Shown piece after piece: positions 15,310-64,000 of a stretch of DNA of 64,000 nt; within the stretch, counting starts at the first letter, position 1, and each line of letters starts with the position of its first letter. Origin of the DNA: Sipunculus nudus (Eukaryota; Annelida; Sipuncula; Golfingiida; Sipunculidae); assembly GCA_026874595.1 (NCBI GenBank), contig CM049316.1, positions 40,439,695-40,503,694 on the forward strand, read 5' to 3'. Made by a program: the position numbers and the translations under genes. Under the pieces are notes generated by a model. That model was not told the origin of the DNA. It searched no databases and worked only from the letters and a program-made list of their open reading frames with translations.

Positions 15310-16475
15310 AACAATGAACTTATTTATTTATTACAATATTATGCAGGGTAGCCTGCACCAGAAGAACACTTCTGTTGTAAACAGGACCCTATTCCATATA
15401 AAGAATACAAGACATTTTTAAACAATTTAATATGAAATAAAATAAAATACAAATTACAATACGAATATAAAAGACATATAAAGACAATAAAACTATTACA
15501 AATGACAGATTATACTTTGAAATAAATAGATTATCATGGAGATATCGGTACTAAGAATGGTAAGTACGACTATTCTAACTAAAGCAATCTGTATAGTGCC
15601 AAAACTAAGATAACGCTGCAAGACTAGAAAAGTACGAACGTGATATCTTTTTAAAACTCTGCAAAATTGGGGCGCATTTAATGTCCAAGGGAAGGGCACT
15701 GCCTGCATAGAATGAAGCAGCCTTGAAAGATTCAATCCGTGGTTTGGGAAGGATACAGTTATTGTTATGGGTTGAGCGCGTGGAATAATGGTGAATGTCT
15801 TTAGCCATGGCGAACTTATCACATTGATACGAAGGGGCTAAACAATTTATGCATTTATAAGTCACAACAGATAAAAGGTATAAAAATCGCTGCTCGACTG
15901 TCATCAAACCTATCTCTTTGATTAATTCCAGACTACTTCGTGACGGGTTATAGTTTCTTGTTATAATCCTTGCCGCCCGACACTGAATGTATTGAATAGC
16001 GGCACGGAAAGTGCTTGGACAGCTAGCTGCCCCATACAGTTAAGTCACAATCTATTGTTGGCTGAACGAACGCATGATATAAAGTGAGTAGAAACTTTTG
16101 TGGCAGAAATTTGCTAAGTCTGTATAATAGACTATTTTGCAACATAACTTTTTAAAGACAGCAAAAGTGTGAGATTTCCATGTGAGATGTGAGTCAATTA
16201 TGAGGCCAAGGTGAGAGAATTCCTCAACGTTTGGGATAACATGTTCATCGATACGGGTATGTAATGGTTTTAAAGATTTGCGCTGTTTAGAACTTAAGAG
16301 CATTGTAGCTGATTTTATGGCGTTGGCAACTAGTTTGTTTTTATTGAGCCATTTGGTGACTTGGTCTACCGCGCCCTGCAGCTTATGTTGTGCTGAATCA
16401 CGACTGATACCATCTGCGTATAGAATGATGTCGTCAGCATAAATTGAACATTTAGCGTCTGTTATATATTAACAC
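15310..16475 (-). pseudogene. 5'-truncated LINE, reverse transcriptase remnant
   Basis: The minus strand from about 16472 reads one frame to 15605, interrupted by in-frame stops near 16052 and 16040. It contains the reverse-transcriptase catalytic motif SIYADDIILYADG. Further on are LGLIIDSHLTWKSH and the C-terminal block RAARIITRNYNPSRSSLELI followed by STRSTHNNN, an arrangement known from ORF2 of CR1/Jockey-type non-LTR retrotransposons. The endonuclease and N-terminal RT parts are absent, as expected for a 5'-truncated insertion. About 300 bp of A/T-rich 3' sequence follow to about 15310. It is not functional. Confidence 0.85.
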
Positions 16476-23996: not shown

Positions 23997-24101
23997 TTAA
24001 ACCACAAATTCAGGCAGATCATCTTCAGCTGCTGCAGCCTTCTTCAGCTCCTCACGCGCCCTGGTGGTCATGTACAACATTAACCCTATTGTCACCAGTA
24101 T
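23997..24101 (-). CDS. TMEM64: TMEM64-like protein, last coding exon
   Basis: 34 codons plus TAA. The acceptor is GTGTTTTCAG|ATACTG, phase 0, so the protein runs FFVLQ-ILVTIGLMLYM. This completes the last membrane segment (pattern LQI...IGLM.Y as in TMEM64) and is followed by a short cytosolic tail TTRAREELKKAAAAEDD ending LPEFVV. The tail is much shorter than in vertebrates. The exon is too short to stand out as an open frame; it was found by looking for the missing last helix. Confidence 0.9.
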   Translation of the reverse strand: MLVTIGLMLYMTTRAREELKKAAAAEDDLPEFVV

Positions 24102-25589
24102 CTGAAAACACAATATGTCCAAATACAGAGGGATTAGATGATCAAAATTTCATCACTTTCAACGGAGCTTTTCTAAATGTGTATTCATCAATTATACAAA
24201 TAAATTTAAGCAAATCTGTTATCATCAACAGATCAGTTCAATTTACTCATGAAACAGTCATTATTAATATAGTTTTATTTTATGCAAATTTTATTCAAAT
24301 GGCCAACATTAAAATTTCAATTCATATATTTGCTAAATGGATTCATCAGTAAATATGAAAATATCAAGGAATATTTCTTAATATTTTGTACAATAAATTA
24401 TAATATCACAATGGTTTTAAAAGTCCAAAATATTTTTTAATGAAGAATTTGAAATAATAAAAATGAGTGAAGAGAACATTATTTTATCATCTCATGTCCT
24501 ATTTTATATTGTTCTGCAATTAAACATTATAATTATTATTAAACTACCCTGATTAGTCATGTTTCATGTCAGTGCACCATGCTTGTAGATTTGTGAGCAG
24601 AAAGTGTGTTTGCTAATTCGTCAGTTTGAATCAGGTATATTTATATCATATACCAAGTGTATGTGATGTGACAACAAACAGAACAAGAAGTATTGTTCTA
24701 AGTGATCAGGACTTTTTAACACACTAAATTCATTTATGTCAAAGTAAATAAATAGCCTCATTTCCCGTGAGACAGTGACCCATGGATCATGCATCTTGAT
24801 ATAATTATGCCATGATACATTTAGCACTGTTGAAGACGTGATTTGGGGTGGAGGATATTATTAAGGCTTGATTCCTTTAAATGGCTGCAGTTAGGGTACA
24901 GACCTATCATCTCATCCAACATATTTTTTTTTTTTTAGTGGATCATATGGGGCGGAAAGGAATCCTACTATACTGCATATTCACATAAAGGATTCCAAGG
25001 ATTAACCAGGTTTAACAGAATATACACCTGACTGATTACAGATTGTTTGCCTCATTAATCGCATTGTCAGCAACTGATATGATATTAACTATGAAATGGT
25101 GCATCTGCCAAGGATTCCAGTCATGACAATGAAGGCGATTATGACAATATTCCATGATATTAAATGGTCAGATTTACTATTGTAGATATATGAAATGGTC
25201 TGGGATTTCAAATTTGTGTGACAATAAACAAAATTTTCGATTAATCAATATGATACAAAGGGCTTGACTTTATTTCACAAGGGAAAATACTGTTCTGTAC
25301 CTGAAATTGATATTTTGGTCAAATCAATAAAAACATTTTTTTTATAATATTTGCTTGATAAGAATCATTAATAACTGATTTGTACTATGCATGTAAATGT
25401 TTCAAGTAAACTTGCACGGTTCCGGAATTCATGTATATATGCTTGATAATACACACACACACACACATATATATAACACATACATACATACATTTTATCC
25501 TTTATAAGCCACACTAATGGAACCACAAATACATACCACAACCATGTCCAAAACCACATAAAAGGAATAATAGTTTTATATGTATTTAC
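24102..25589 (-). other. intron 2 of the TMEM64-like gene
   Basis: A 1.49-kb AT-rich intron. It holds a poly-T run near 24928-24938 and a short (AC)n/(AT)n patch near 25449-25475. Nothing else was recognised. Confidence 0.8.
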
Positions 25590-25751
25590 CTGGAGTACAA
25601 AAAATCCATAGCTGAGTGGATTGGACGGGCCTTGTCTGAGGATGTCCTCCATGGACCTCAATGTGGATCCTATGTACGTGTTCAGGATCTGGAGGGGCAG
25701 CATGCCCACCATGGACAGAGGGGTGTAGTAATACATCTTCATGTCAGTAGT
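25590..25751 (-). CDS. TMEM64: TMEM64-like protein, coding exon 2
   Basis: 54 codons, phase 0 on both sides. The acceptor is TTTTCACAG|ACTACTGAC and the donor is CTCCAG|GTAAAT. It encodes the family block after the re-entrant motif, including LPLQILNTYIGSTLRSMED, which matches the TMEM64 pattern LP.Q.LN.Y.G.TLR.MED, and ends in FFVLQ. The acceptor and the first part of this exon have been copied repeatedly into the upstream intron (see 25752-26345). Confidence 0.93.
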
Positions 25752-26345
25752 CTGTGAAAATATCAAATATCACAATGGAAGGACAGGTGTAGTTATACAT
25801 CTTTATGTCAGCAGTCTGTGTGAAAAGAGCAAATATCATAATGGAGAGAGGGGTGAAGTAATACATCTTCATGTCAGTAGTCTGTAAAAAAAGGAAATAT
25901 CCCAATGGAGAGAGGGGTGTAGTCACACATCTTTATGTCAGTAGTCTGTAAAAATAGCAAATATCACAATGGAGAGACAGGTGTAGTTATACATCTTCAT
26001 GTCAGTAGTCTGTAAAAAAAGGAAATATCCCAATGGAGAGAGGGGTGTAGTTATACATCTTCATGTCAGTAGTTGGTACAAAAAAGAAAATATCACAATG
26101 GAGAGACAGGTGTAGTAATATATCTTGATTTCAGAAGTCTGTAAATAGAATAAATATCACAATGGAGAGAGGGGTGTAGTCACACATCTTCATGTCAGTA
26201 GTCTGTAAAAAGAGCAAATATCACAATGGAGACAGGTGTAATAATACATCTTCATGTCAGTAGTCTGTAAAAATAAGTAAATATCTCAATGGAGGGGTGT
26301 AGTAATACATCTTCATGACAGTAGTCTGTAAAAAGAGCAAATATA
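25752..26345 (-). repeat. tandem array of exon-2 splice-acceptor copies
   Basis: Nine further copies of a unit of about 64 bp lie directly upstream of exon 2. Each holds a pyrimidine-rich acceptor (TTTTTACAG|ACTACTGACAT or close) and the first about 40 bp of exon 2 with its TTDMKMYYYTPLS-type reading. Counting from the genuine exon copy at 25734, the CATCTTCATG word (plus strand) recurs at about 25798, 25864, 25928, 25992, 26056, 26121, 26185, 26247 and 26308. Spacing is 61-66, mostly 64, which is not a multiple of three, so most copies lie in different frames. I see them as intronic duplications that carry decoy acceptors. Confidence 0.93.
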
Positions 26346-26842
26346 ACCAAAACATATTAAAATTAATATCAATTTCTGTCAAAGGATCAAATATATGACT
26401 GGTCAAAAACATACTGGTTGTCTGCCAAATAAAAAAATATACCATCAGTTACAAACAGATAAATGTATATTATTTGTCAGTCAAAAGAAAAATTATACAG
26501 TTCACAACAAACAAATTAAAAATCTAATAAAGGTCGAGTAAAGTGACACGTGTCCACTGACTAAGCACAGTACCCTGTGAGGCTGTGACACCTACATGAA
26601 TATGTGTTGCAGTGAAACAGTGCAATGTTTTATTTAAAGAGTGTCTTTTTCTCACTGTCAGGAAAGGCAGGCTTTTTGACTATGGTTCCAAAATTGTTTG
26701 GGAAAGTACCTGGTAAGTGTGTTTTCTGACTGGTTTAGCTAAAGTAGTTTGAAACCATTCTGAAACTTCTAAAGCCAAGTGTAAATACAAATATAATCAA
26801 TTCTTACCAAACTTCTATACTGAATTCAACTTTCGGAAGAAA

Positions 26843-27135
26843 AGCGGTACAATGTAGCCTAGTGGTTAAGAGGTTGGCCTTCTAAACTGGAGGTCCCTGG
26901 TTCAAACCCCACAGGTACCTCAATGGCACAATGGTGCAATCAGGTTAGAACCACAGAGATTAACTCTAATGTATTAACAACAGATTATGACTTCTGGTTT
27001 ATTCCACACCCTGTGCATATAAAACCTGAAATCCAGAAGGCTTAATAATAACATATCATTCTAATCATATGGATACCTTTATTCTCATTCAATAGACAGA
27101 GCCACCAACAAGCCATGGATCTGTCCTTACAAGAA
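26843..27135 (+). mobile_element. tRNA-derived SINE, family 1, in intron 1
   Basis: The tRNA-like head has an A box (TAGCCTAGTGGTTAAGAGG), an anticodon-arm-like CCTTCTAAACTGGAGG and a B box (GGTTCAAACCC). It is followed by ACCTCAATGGCACAATGG, AATCCAGAAGGCTTAATAA, TCATTCAATAGACAGAG and GGATCTGTCCTTA. It lies opposite to the host gene. It shares its whole block order with the minus-strand copy at 11562-11811. It is not a functional tRNA gene: there is no matching acceptor stem and the body continues for 200 bp. Confidence 0.8.
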
Positions 27136-27428
27136 GTTTTTTTATAACTTTTGGAAGAAATGTCTTTGTCAGAAAGGTCAGTAACTTTTGGTATATGTTG
27201 AATTTTTAAGTACAAGTTTAGTTCTTATCCAAATGACAGATCTCATTTTTGTAAGAAAATTTAAAAAAACTTGTGTTATAAAATTATGGCAAATGGATCC
27301 ATTGCATGAAATGATGATTACATTACAAAACTGAAATTAAACTGAATGAGTAACAGACTTGATATGGCAGGTCCTACCAAAGATTCGAACTGATACGGTC
27401 TACGCATTTTTAGATCAAATATACTTAC

Positions 27429-27950
27429 AGCAAATAGAGCATTCTGTAACCCAAATGGAATTGGTGTAATTCTTGCCAGAACAGCCACTTTGAGCCCTTG
27501 GTGACTGGACAGCAGTTTCAGCAAAGCATCGAGATAATCGCTCCCACGCTCTAACCGTTGTAAGATCCAGTTTTGGCACATATACCGCATAACAAACTGT
27601 GCAATTGTGATCCCACAAGCAGCGCAAAACGACACAAACAGCAGTCCACGCCAAAAACCATACAGGTAACCACAAGTCAAATTTAAAAGAAGGTAACCCC
27701 ATGCAAATGGGAATGATACTAGTGTGAAGAGAAGTATAAAAATAAAAGCTTTTTGCCAATTTGGTATTTTTTCAAGCCACAACAAGACAGTGTGAACCTT
27801 ATCCTTGCCAAGAATAAGTGTAAGACTGATTCCCAAAATCAACAGACAGACCAAAATGAGGATCCGCAGCACTCCGTACTTCTTCTCCGGTTTCTTCTCC
27901 GATTCTTCTTCCTCTTCTTTTTCCACAGGTTTGCTCCAGCCTGGCTTCAT
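27429..27950 (-). CDS. TMEM64: TMEM64-like protein, coding exon 1
   Basis: First coding exon (174 codons) of a VTT/SNARE-associated (TVP38/DedA-type) multi-pass membrane protein. Known members of this fold sit in ER/Golgi-type membranes; vertebrate TMEM64 has been linked to calcium handling and Wnt signalling, which I only carry over as family knowledge. Visible: an acidic/basic N terminus (residues 1-24, EEEEESEKKPEKK); hydrophobic segments at about 26-48, 66-92 and 101-124; the family block LTCGYLYGFWRG at 91-102; and the conserved re-entrant motif LARITPIPFGLQNALF at 158-173. The ATG at 27950 is the first in frame before an acidic stretch. The donor is GCT|GTAAGT at 27428, phase 0. Together with exons 25590-25751 and 23997-24101 it gives 262 residues, shorter than the vertebrate protein, mainly in the N-terminal tail. 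Confidence 0.93.
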
Positions 27951-28029: not shown

Positions 28030-28430
28030 TGTTATCTTGATGTAAGTTTGCAGCAGTCACTGGGGTCTGCTGTTGTTGCTATGAGCTACTAAGGCAAACT
28101 GCTGTCACTGATGGTTGGTGCTGTTGGTGTTACCAAGAGTTAATTGCTATCACTGAAGTTTGTTGCTGTATGAAGATTTCCTATTGTCACCAAATACCTG
28201 CTGTCATCACAGTTTCCTGATCTCACCCCAAGGTCTCAAGCAGTCACCAAGGTTTCCAAAGGTGTCACAAAAGTTTCAGGGTGTCGCCAATGATTCCTGG
28301 TTGCCAAGGATTCCTGGTTGTCACCAAGGTTTCCTGCTGTCACCGAGGCTTCCTGTTTCTCCCAGGTTGCCTTACTGGTACCAAAGTTTTTTCCTGTAAC
28401 CCAGATGTTAAGTTTTCACCTGATTTTTGC
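28030..28430. repeat. degenerate 19-21-bp tandem repeat upstream of TMEM64-like ATG
   Basis: About twenty diverged units of the form CTGCTGTCACCAAGGTTTC run head to tail just upstream of the minus-strand start codon at 27950. The tract may overlap the 5' untranslated region or promoter. No promoter element was identified. The overlapping short open frames only read the repeat. Confidence 0.75.
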
Positions 28431-38587: not shown

Positions 38588-39700
38588 TTAGCTGACTTTT
38601 AAGTCATGCTGGGCTATAGCGATGGGTCTTTGTCCGTCGTCCTTCCGTCTGTCCGTCCGGCCGTCCGGCTGTCCGTCCGTTAGCAGGGTACAAATCGTAA
38701 CCGTAGGGGCTAGGGCCATGAACCCTATGCAGTCTTAGAGGTTATAAAAAGATCTCCTTGCAAACCTGAAATTAGGTCACTGCGACCTATATTCTCGATG
38801 TTATGGGGTGTGTTTGCACCCCCCAGAAATAACTCTTTTAGACAAAATTTTCATCCCAAACCTTCCATCTTTCACATACAGCTCACCTACCAACAGGGGA
38901 AGAACCATAATTTTTTTAGGTCAAAAGGTCAAAGGTCAAGGTCACAGGAGCCTCTTCTTTGAAAAGCCTGTGGATGCATTTTAAGCCAACCCTTTCATCC
39001 CAATTCTTTGATCTTTCACATATAGCTCACCTACTAAGTTGGAGAAGAATCCTATAGATTTTGAGGTCACAAGGTCAAAGGTCAGGGTCACAGGATCCAC
39101 TTCTTTGAAAAGGTTGTGGACACATTTCAAGCTAGACTTTTCATTCCAAACCTTCCAGCACTGATATCGCTTCTCTGCCAACAGGGGAAAAGACCTGTTG
39201 ATTTTGAGGTCAAAGGTCAAGTTCACAGCACCCACTTCTTGTGTGGAGTCATTTTCAGGCAAACTTTTCAATCTGTACCTTCCATCTGTCATATATGGCT
39301 TACCTACCAATAAGGGAAGAAGCCTATTGATGTTGAGGTCAAAAAGTCAAAGGTCAAGGTCACAATATTTAATTGTTCTAAATGCTTGTGAGCATATTTC
39401 AAGTGTAACTGTTCAACCCAAACCTTCAGTCTTTCACATATGCCACATCTATGCATCACTCAGTTTGACTCAAACTTCATATTTATGGGTCTTTTTGCTT
39501 GAATAAATAACTTATTGATTTTGTGGTCAGCTGGTCAGCAGGTTAAAGGTTGCAGGTCAAAGTTATTCACCCATTGGTTGCAAAGTAATTACACCAGATT
39601 AAAGTAGTTAGTAGTTACCCATCATTTAGAAAGAATCCAGTTGATATGTGGGCAAAAGGCCAAGGTCATAGGTCAGGGATGTTCACAATTACTTATTTTA
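38588..39700 (+). mobile_element. HINE-like element, TAGCTGAC family
   Basis: It begins in a T run with TAGCTGACTTTTAAGTCATG, then a (GTCCGTCC)n block, CATGAACCCTATGCAGTCTT, and tandem core units of about 115-130 bp. Each unit has CCAAACCTTCCATCTTTCAC, CTACCAACAGGGGAAGAA and GGTCAAAGGTCAAGGTCACA. The 3' end is not clear. A shorter copy follows at 40238-40735. It has no protein-coding capacity. Confidence 0.7.
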
Positions 39701-59235: not shown

Positions 59236-60988
59236 TGTATCCCCAGACAAAGTCGGGGGATACTATGTTTTCATACTGGTCCCGCCTCCGCCGCCGCCGC
59301 CGCATATAAATCTTGTTGGCGCGATAACCCAAAAAATATTTCACGGAACTTTACCAAACTTGGTATATGTATAGATATGGGTGAGTGGACGACGCCTATT
59401 TAAAATGAGGTCATGACCTTTACTAGGAGAGTGTCCTTGACCTTGAATAGGTCCAATTTTGGGGAAAATCACACAAATTCTTTAATATCTCAAGAAATCT
59501 TGCATGGATTTATCCCAAAATCAAGTTGATGGAAGATCATGGATAGGGTTGTCATGTTCCAGAAACTGGTGGCGCCACCTATTATTCTTTACTTGTTTTT
59601 GTGCCGTTTAATACCCCCAAAATTGCCACCTTAAAGTACTGTGAGCATTATAAGTCAAAAACTAATGGACAGATTTCTTTTATATTATGCATATACATAG
59701 GTATGGGTTATGGGATGATGTTCATTTAAATTGGGGTCATGACCTTTCCTATGATAGTGGCCTTGACCTTGAATATTGCCATATATGGTGAAAATCACAC
59801 ACCTCTTATGATATCTCCAGTGTTGATAGCCATATGGATTTCAAACATGACTTATGTATGGCCCACCACTAAAGTAAGAACCCTATTGGTTCTAGGGTCA
59901 TGAGGTCAAAGGTCAAGGTCACTGGACTGGCATTTTAAAAGATACTGTGGATGCATTTTAAGCCAAACTTTCACCTTAGGTCTTCCATCTTAAATATATA
60001 GCTCACTTGCCAGTAGTGGATGATCCATATAAATTTTGGGGTCACAAGGTCAAAGGTCAAGGCGACAGGAGCTATCTGTCCAAAAATTAGTTTCTGGATG
60101 ATAATTCCTGCTTTTATTGATGTATTGATTTCAAACTTGACTTATATATGTCCCATTGAAAAAGCAAGACTCCAATTGATTTTGGGGTCATGAGTTCAAA
60201 GGTCAAGGTCACAGGACACATCTTTAAAAAAAATTGTGGATGCATTTTCAGCCAAACATTTCATCTCAGACCTTTCATCTTGCACATGTAAGTCATCTGC
60301 CAATAGAGGAAGAACACTATCAATTTTGAGGTCACAAGGTCAAAGGTGAAGGTCACAGGAGCCATCTGTCCAAAAAAATTAGTTTCTGGATGATAATTCC
60401 TGCTTTTATTGATGTATGGATTTCAAACTTGACTTGCATATGTCCCATTGGAAAAGCAAGACCCAAATTGATTTTGGGGTCATGAGGTCAAAGGTCAAGG
60501 TCACAGGACACATCTTTAAAAAGATGTGGATGCATTTTCAGCCAAACATTTCATCTCAGATCTTTCATCTTGCACATATAGTTCTCCTGCCAAGAGAGGA
60601 AGAACACTATCAATTTTGAGGTCACAAGGTCAAAGGTGAAGGTCACAGGAGCCATCTGTCCAAAAAAAATAGTTTCTGGATGATAATTCCTTCTTTTATT
60701 GATGTATGGATTTCAATCTTGACTTGCATATGTCCCATTGGAAAAGCAAGACCCAAATTGATTTTGAGGTCATGAGGTCAAAGGTCAAGGTCACAGGACA
60801 CATCTTTAAAAAGTTCAAGGTCACAGGACCAACATCTTCAACAAGATTGTGGATTGTTAGATGGAAGAAACAATAAATATGCCAAGTGTCAGTATATGCT
60901 GCTAAAAATGGGGGACTATTTTTAAAGGGGGGGGGGGGCTACTATGTCTGGGGATACTCTGGCACCTGCGGTGCCAAGAAATGTCTAG
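59236..60988 (+). mobile_element. Helentron-associated (HINE) element, GTATCCCC family, complete
   Basis: It starts TTGTATCCCCAGACAAAGTC. Just before the 3' end the same word returns inverted (GTCTGGGGATAC, 60946-60957), then a stem-loop GGCACCTGCGGTGCC (60961-60975) and the end ATGTCTAG. A 5' terminal repeat mirrored upstream of a 3' stem-loop is the asymmetric plan of Helentrons and their non-autonomous HINEs. Internally: a CCG-repeat patch, TGGCGCCACCTATTATTCTT, then about three and a half core units of about 290 bp with GGTCATGAGGTCAAAGGTCA and TTGCACATATAG. No Rep/helicase is encoded. Confidence 0.85.
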
Positions 60989-62244: not shown

Positions 62245-64000
62245 TTGTATCCCCAGACAAAGTCGGGGGATACTGTTTTCATACCGGTCCCGCCGCCGCA
62301 TATGAATCTTGTTGGCGCGATAACCCAAAAAATATTTCACAGAACTTTACCAAACTTGGTATATGTATAGATATGGGTGAGAGGACGACGCCTATTTAAA
62401 ATGAGGTCATGACCTTTACTAGGAGAGTGTCCTTGACCTTGAATAGGTCCAATTTTGGGGAAAATCACACAAATTCTTTAATATCTCAAGAAATCTGGCA
62501 TGGATTTATCCCAAAATCAAGTTGATGGAAGATCATGGATAGAATTGTCATGTTCCAGAAACTGGTGGCGCCACCTATTATTCTTTACTTGATTTTGTGC
62601 CGTTTAATACCCCCAAAATTGCCACCTTACAGTACTATAAGCATTATGAGTCAAAAACTAATGGACAGATTTCTTTTATTTTATGCGTATACATAGGTAT
62701 GGGTTATGGGATGATGTTTATTTAAATTGGGGTCATGACCTTTCCTATGAGAGTGGCCTTGACCTTGAATATTGCCATATATGGTGAAAATCACACACCT
62801 CTTATGATATCTCCAGTGTTGATAGCCATATGGATTTCAAACATGACTTATGTATGGCCCACCACTAAAGTAAGAACCCTATAGGTTCTAGGGTATTGAG
62901 GTCAAAGGTCAAGGTCACTGGACTGGCATCTTAAAAGATACTGTGGATGCATTTTAAGCCAAACTTTCATCCCAGGTCTTCCATCTTCAATATATAGCTC
63001 ACTTGCCAATAGTGGATGATCCATATAAATTTTGGGGTCACAAGGTCAAAGGTCAAGGCCACAGGAGCTATCTGTCCAAAAATTAGTTTCTGGATGATAA
63101 TTCCTGCTTTTATTGATGTATGGATTTCAAACTTGACTTATATATGTCCCATTGAAAAAGCAAGACTCCAATTGATTTTGGGGTCATGAGGTGAAAGGTC
63201 AAGGTCACAGGAAATCTCTCTAAAAAGATTGTGGATGCATTTTCAGCCAAACATTTCATCTCAGACCTTTCATCTTGCGCATATAGTTCATCTGCCAGTA
63301 GAAGAAGACCCCTATCAATTTTGAGGTCACAAGGTCAAAGGTGAAGGTCACAGGAGCCATCTGTCCAGAAATTAGTTTCTTGATGATAATTCCTTCTTTT
63401 ATTGATGTATGGATTTCAAACTTGACTTGTATTTGACCCATTGGAAAAGCAAGACCCGAATTGATTTTGGGGTCATGAGGTCAAAGGTCAAGGTCACAGG
63501 ACACTTCTTTAGAAAGATGTGGATGCATTTTCAGCCAAACATTTCATCTCAGACCTTTCATCTTGCGCATATAGTTCATCTGCCAATAGAAGAAGACCCC
63601 TATCAATTTTGAGGTCACAAGGTCAAAGGTGAAGGTCACAGGAGCCATCTGTCCAGAAATTTGTTTCTTGATGATAATTCCTTCTTTTATTGATGTATGG
63701 ATTTCAAACTTGATTTGTATTTGACCCATTGGAAAAGCAAGACCCGAATTGATTTTGGGGTCATGAGGTCAAAGGTCAAGGTCACAGGACACATCTTTAG
63801 AAAGATGTGGATGCATTTACAGCCATACATTTCATCTCAGATCTTTCATCTTGCACATATAGTTCACCTGCCAAGAGAGGAAGAACACTATCAATTTTGA
63901 GGTCACAAGGTCAAAGGTGAATGTCACAGGAGCCATCTGTCCAAAAATTAGTTTCTGGATGATAATTCCTGTTTTTATTGATGTATGGATTTCAAACTTG
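62245..64000 (+). mobile_element. HINE element, GTATCCCC family, runs off the window
   Basis: Very similar to the element at 59236 from its first base: TTGTATCCCCAGACAAAGTC, a shorter CCGCCG patch, the same TGGCGCCACCTATTATTCTT. It then has at least four core units of about 288-292 bp (TATGGATTTCAAACTTGA near 63117, 63407, 63695 and 63983). Repeated short frames beginning MDFKLDL and MGQIQ recur every 288 bp because they read the core, not because they are genes. The 3' end is outside. Confidence 0.85.

Follow-up and report, generated by a model that had tools for sequence, protein, structure and literature searches.

An intron of a VTT-domain gene in Sipunculus nudus carries nine extra copies of its boundary with the exon that follows, and we consider it likely that this array is an intronic minisatellite of the 'mirage' kind and a neutral by-product of repeat growth. 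It lies on the minus strand at 25708-26345 of the 64,000-nt stretch of DNA analysed here (the window) and comprises ten units of about 64 nt, nine of them copies and the tenth the true edge of exon 2, each made of about 20 nt of intron end and 44 nt of exon start. The original prediction had left three readings side by side: a device that tunes splicing, partial intron retention and neutral slippage. The last is now the best supported, by a unit that corresponds to one duplication, by the lack of a coding signature in the copies, by neutral simulations at 6% and 13% divergence and by work on lancelet genes (PMC3087553, PMC3902484; published work is cited here and throughout from parts of the papers).

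The host gene has three exons on the minus strand, which we derived from splice signals and the reading frame. The coding part of exon 1 (27429-27950) starts with an ATG at 27950 and runs for 174 codons without an internal stop up to a GTAAGT donor 3' of 27429 (donor position 27428). Joined to exon 2 (25590-25751, 162 nt, with a GTAAAT donor at 25589) and to the coding part of exon 3 (23997-24101 including the stop codon, the end being computed from the part lengths), it gives a frame of 262 aa. Intron 1 spans 25752-27428 (1677 nt), and the array makes up its 3' third. The joined protein matched the Pfam family PF09335 (VTT) at 50.4 bits with a cut-off of 33.9. Exon 1 alone scored 34.7 bits and covered positions 5-91 of the profile, as compared to 5-122 for the joined protein, and the first residues of exon 2 fall within the domain. 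Since exon 2 starts within the VTT domain, its coding edge is older than the array, and the array is derived from the exon edge. The reverse polarity, with the start of exon 2 born from an intronic repeat, is ruled out by the VTT match. The gene had been described as TMEM64-like: the VTT domain was borne out by Pfam, whereas the name itself refers to human TMEM64, which the host protein presumably resembles, and as a label it is plausible. VTT proteins comprise VMP1, TMEM41 and TMEM64 (PMC10895845). Among solved structures there were no matches for the host protein at E up to 10, and among viral contigs no relatives were found. Directly upstream of the start codon lies an imperfect tandem repeat of 17-20 bp (28197-28355), perhaps part of the 5' untranslated region.

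Tandem Repeats Finder placed the array at 25707-26344 with a period of 64, 10.0 copies and 83% matches (score 827) and, in an alternative reading, with a period of 257 (score 914), whereas intron 1 plus exon 2, dinucleotide-shuffled 100 times, scored 47 at most. Together with the positions of the copies, this confirmed the nine tandem copies of about 64 bp that had been proposed directly upstream of exon 2. A DNA search of the species' own 1.43-Gb genome, in which only the best candidates were scored and very common words were skipped, returned one match for the array and one for exon 1.

Copy 1, the left-most (26265-26345), has its AG at 26327-26326 and its exon-like start at 26325, and it probably holds the founder tract. 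Copy 2 (26203-26264), copy 3 (26139-26202) and copy 4 (26074-26138), with exon-like starts at 26264, 26202 and 26138, all retained the AG; the exon-derived part of copy 4 is the most diverged (4/30). Copy 5 follows at 26010-26073 with its exon-like start at 26073. The AG is likewise retained in copy 6 (25946-26009, exon-like start 26009), copy 7 (25882-25945, start 25945), copy 8 (25816-25881, start 25881) and copy 9 (25752-25815, start 25815), with the true acceptor's tract forming the 3' end of the latter. All copies had been thought to carry an AG, which holds for eight of the nine but not for copy 5, where CCA precedes 26073. The true acceptor, formerly placed at 25752, has its AG at 25753-25752, and exon 2 proper begins at 25751. 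Pairwise identity among the ten units ranges from 75 to 97% and looks mosaic: copy 7 with its upstream tract is 97% like copy 3, and copies 6 and 8 are 94% alike, these values referring to short units. Such a pattern would fit exchange inside the array.

Two further stretches of intron 1 deserve mention. A 20-nt segment at 26375-26394, located 50 nt upstream of copy 1 on the minus strand, is 85% like the tract of the true acceptor and is perhaps a decayed further copy or a product of chance. By eye, a tRNA-promoter-like, SINE-like stretch was recognized at 26844-26920 (minus strand); ARAGORN found no tRNA in the window, and Rfam gave no match there at gathering scores.

The array may be explained by a short series of events. 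The 20 nt at the end of intron 1 would have been duplicated in tandem together with the adjoining 44 nt of exon 2, probably via template slippage or misaligned recombination at TGGT, a match of 4 nt found on either side of the segment. Unequal exchange would then have let the array grow to ten units, and the nine upstream units would have turned into intron and drifted. Nearly all productive mRNA would be made from the right-most acceptor, which alone gives the full frame because no other unit continues into the remainder of exon 2, and mis-spliced transcripts using a copy would probably be cleared by nonsense-mediated decay. TGGT was indeed found at both breakpoints. The predicted founder unit (20 + 44 = 64 nt) matched each of the nine copies at 52-59 positions; since its intron part was taken from the left-most tract and its exon part from the true exon, the tract of copy 1 matches it by construction.

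Tandem repeats are common in this genome. In 200 kb, sampled as 20 random 10-kb stretches from contigs C1-C11, we counted nine arrays with a period of 20-300 and at least three copies. As a rough estimate, with 200,000 exons assumed and units of 64 nt, random placement would give about 1000 edge-spanning arrays genome-wide, and an array of this type may thus not call for any special cause. One of the random stretches (L014, 1-10000) consisted entirely of a 96-bp satellite with 104 copies and 92% matches. Within the window, a 45-bp unit is repeated 34.8 times at 331-1895 (87% matches). Open frames of 379 aa on the plus strand (743-1882) and 157 aa on the minus strand (309-782) occur here, as a 45-bp period allows long open frames on both strands. 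Two arrays at 59833-60813 (290-bp period) and 62897-64000 (288-bp period) have AAGGTCAAGGTCACAGG in common in their consensus units, and AAGGTCAAGGTCACAGG is also present in a 146-bp array at 38849-39157. A reverse transcriptase remnant was recognized on the minus strand at 16055-16468 (PF00078, 29.9 bits, cut-off 29.6); the adjoining open frame (15608-16039) had no Pfam match.

The copies are without coding constraint. Over the first 30 exon-derived bases of the nine copies, 17 of 270 sites are changed relative to the exon, distributed over codon positions as 7/4/6, and only one of these changes is synonymous while 16 are non-synonymous, with 17% synonymous expected at random. As to the acceptors, there is no firm sign of upkeep, and the power to detect one is small. 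After copy 1, the AG was retained in seven of eight copies, and neutral simulation at 6.3% divergence retained it in about 7.0 copies, that at 13.1% in 6.05. The mean acceptor score of copies 2-9 was 8.43, as compared to about 9.2 and 6.71 in the simulations at these two rates, and the observed mean was reached by 72-75% of simulations at 6.3% and by 17.8% at 13.1%. With the uncorrected divergence (20.6%), the mean strength of the copies was reached in no more than 1.9% of simulations, which would speak for upkeep, and simulated AG retention was 5.0 on average versus the seven observed (reached by 14%). This rate was set aside because indels in three tracts, those belonging to acceptors 2, 5 and 9, inflate it. 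Because of these indels we also withdrew the claim that the tract changed faster than the exon-derived part (26/126 versus 17/270, p 4.5e-5). When the indel tracts were dropped, leaving the tracts of acceptors 3, 4, 6, 7, 8 and the true one and the exon-derived parts of copies 3, 4, 6, 7 and 8, the difference was 11/84 in the tract versus 11/150 in the exon-derived part (p 0.17).

The most serious competitor of the neutral reading is that the copies form a bank of poison acceptors: transcripts spliced there would gain an early stop and be destroyed, so that array length would set gene output, or copies bound by U2AF would delay removal of the intron in the manner of the decoy exons of OGT. We regard this as unlikely, and the same holds for a real effect of the array on splicing. 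The more specific version, in which eight intact acceptors compete with the true edge and array length sets the amount of VTT protein and differs between individuals, appears improbable. Arguments in favor of poison acceptors come from the AG retained in eight of nine copies and from acceptor strength. Acceptors and donors were scored with an approximate matrix, and acceptors also with a flatter matrix and a T-rich stress matrix made up for the test. With the approximate matrix, the AG-bearing copies reached, in order, 11.5, 9.5, 11.5, 9.4, 13.3, 9.8, 13.3 and 9.4 bits, as compared to 7.7 bits for the true exon 2 acceptor and 8.4 bits for that of exon 3. By the approximate matrix and by the flatter one, all eight exceeded the true acceptor; by the T-rich one, seven of eight did. 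The statement that the true acceptor is the weakest thus holds with two matrices and fails with the T-rich matrix, where one copy is weaker. Judged by strength alone, the AG-bearing copies would thus be expected to be used. Competition of the copies with the true acceptor is therefore possible as judged from these scores, which would speak against the neutral reading. On the other hand, AG retention and strength fit neutrality at 6.3% and 13.1% divergence. At 13.1% the observed mean strength still lies above the neutral mean, and at the uncorrected rate it exceeds the neutral simulation, both of which weigh against the neutral reading. The true site could be favored by its nearness to the exon 2 donor, with an exon of 162 nt versus 226-736 nt for the copies, and by the rest of exon 2.

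Other signals were equally considered. The motif CTGAC occurs 54-58 nt before seven of the ten acceptors, in the exon-like part of the preceding unit, and might serve as a branch site, which would favor poison acceptors, as would the report that decoy 3' sites of OGT bind U2AF and promote retention (PMC12017769). Predicted RNA folding was unremarkable (z 0.92; 16 of 20 shuffles folded at least as well), which argues against this reading and rules out that secondary structure conceals the copies. Lancelet arrays of the same geometry suggest undisturbed splicing in the parts of the papers considered here (PMC3087553, PMC3902484), which is a further argument against it.

The consequences of using a copy for the reading frame appear at first sight to support poison acceptors. 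Copies 1-9 would add 574, 513, 451, 387, 322, 258, 194, 130 and 64 nt, in agreement with the predicted range of 64 to about 574 nt upstream of the true acceptor. The frame is kept for three copies (513, 387 and 258 nt) and shifted for six, as was expected for most of them, yet the three in-frame copies run into early stops too. All nine give proteins of 196-219 aa instead of 262, and in all nine the stop precedes the exon 2-exon 3 junction by 154-667 nt. However, these stops need no selection and are not special, because 999 of 1000 shuffled arrays likewise give an early stop in nine of nine copies. A designed safeguard is thereby ruled out.

That an intron gain is under way, with copies being spliced in as small exons of 42 nt (14 codons, in frame) by means of a donor within the unit and thereby repeating a VTT segment, we consider very improbable. 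Such a process was proposed for lancelet globins and shown for a potato gene with a two-copy duplication, the RdRp gene, in which an intron arose from a duplication across the intron 1-exon 2 boundary (PMC4974935). In four of the nine copies of our array, the distance from the AG to ATT|GTGATA is indeed exactly 42 nt and free of stops. However, no usable donor was found within the array unit: with the approximate matrix the ATT|GTGATA donors scored 1.6 and the best donor of the array 3.55, as compared to 6.15 and 9.07 for the real donors. Splicing to the following acceptor would leave an intron of just 22-23 nt, so that one unit must be passed over, an option that copy 9 lacks. In addition, the extra residues would be expected to break a conserved membrane domain. 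An assembly artefact is the least probable explanation of all: tandem repeats are frequently misassembled, and one lancelet array looked aberrantly assembled in a draft genome (PMC3087553), but no two of the ten units are identical (75-97% pairwise), which argues against a stutter, and the array sits in a chromosome-scale contig of 79 Mb. The exact copy number given here is that of the assembly.

Whichever way the splicing machinery treats them, the copies constitute a natural test of how the spliceosome chooses one acceptor among nine similar AG sites. Should splicing make use of them, the length of the array would act as a simple genetic dial for expression; should it never do so, acceptor strength must count for less than position or exon context.

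The neutral reading is in line with what has been described for other boundary-spanning repeats. Mirages are minisatellite-like tandem repeats across an intron-exon boundary in lancelet genes, namely the globins BflGb6 and BflGb9 and Adh3 (PMC3087553), and also PGBD5, in a paper that cites troponin C as well (PMC3902484). The Adh3 data and RT-PCR on the globins suggest that they leave regular splicing alone (PMC3087553), and undisturbed splicing was inferred for the PGBD5 mirage (PMC3902484). In these parts of the two papers the name is applied to lancelet hosts. The present array is probably a further case of this kind. Like the lancelet mirages, it is a tandem minisatellite-like repeat within a gene, its unit spans the intron-exon boundary and adjoins the true exon, and it has several copies, with the splice signal preserved in many of them though not in every one. 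Its mosaic similarities may point to turnover within the array, as in lancelets. It differs from the BflGb6 mirage, which has six or three units of 150-160 bp depending on the haplotype, in that nine extra copies of about 64 nt are found in a VTT-domain gene. Length polymorphism and RT-PCR were examined for the lancelet mirages, whereas the array described here is known from the sequence of one assembly. A search of the open-licence literature with few terms, over titles and the openings of abstracts, found no multi-copy boundary-spanning case outside lancelets, and the array probably extends boundary-spanning minisatellites beyond this group.

Two other systems share part of these features. 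In potato RdRp the duplicated segment consists of the end of intron 1 and the start of exon 2, as in our case, but there one extra copy with a cryptic GTAAG donor gave a new spliced intron (PMC4974935), whereas here nine copies are present and, by the approximate matrix, no good donor. Nonsense-mediated decay has been put forward as a mechanism that protects new introns while they are still weak (PMC2809761). Decoy exons regulate intron retention in OGT (PMC12017769), and like the OGT decoy sites, the copies resemble acceptors, lie in an intron and would bring in an early stop when spliced to. Decoy exons, however, have both an acceptor and a donor and shown effects on retention, whereas the array offers acceptors and, as scored with the same approximate matrix, no good donor.
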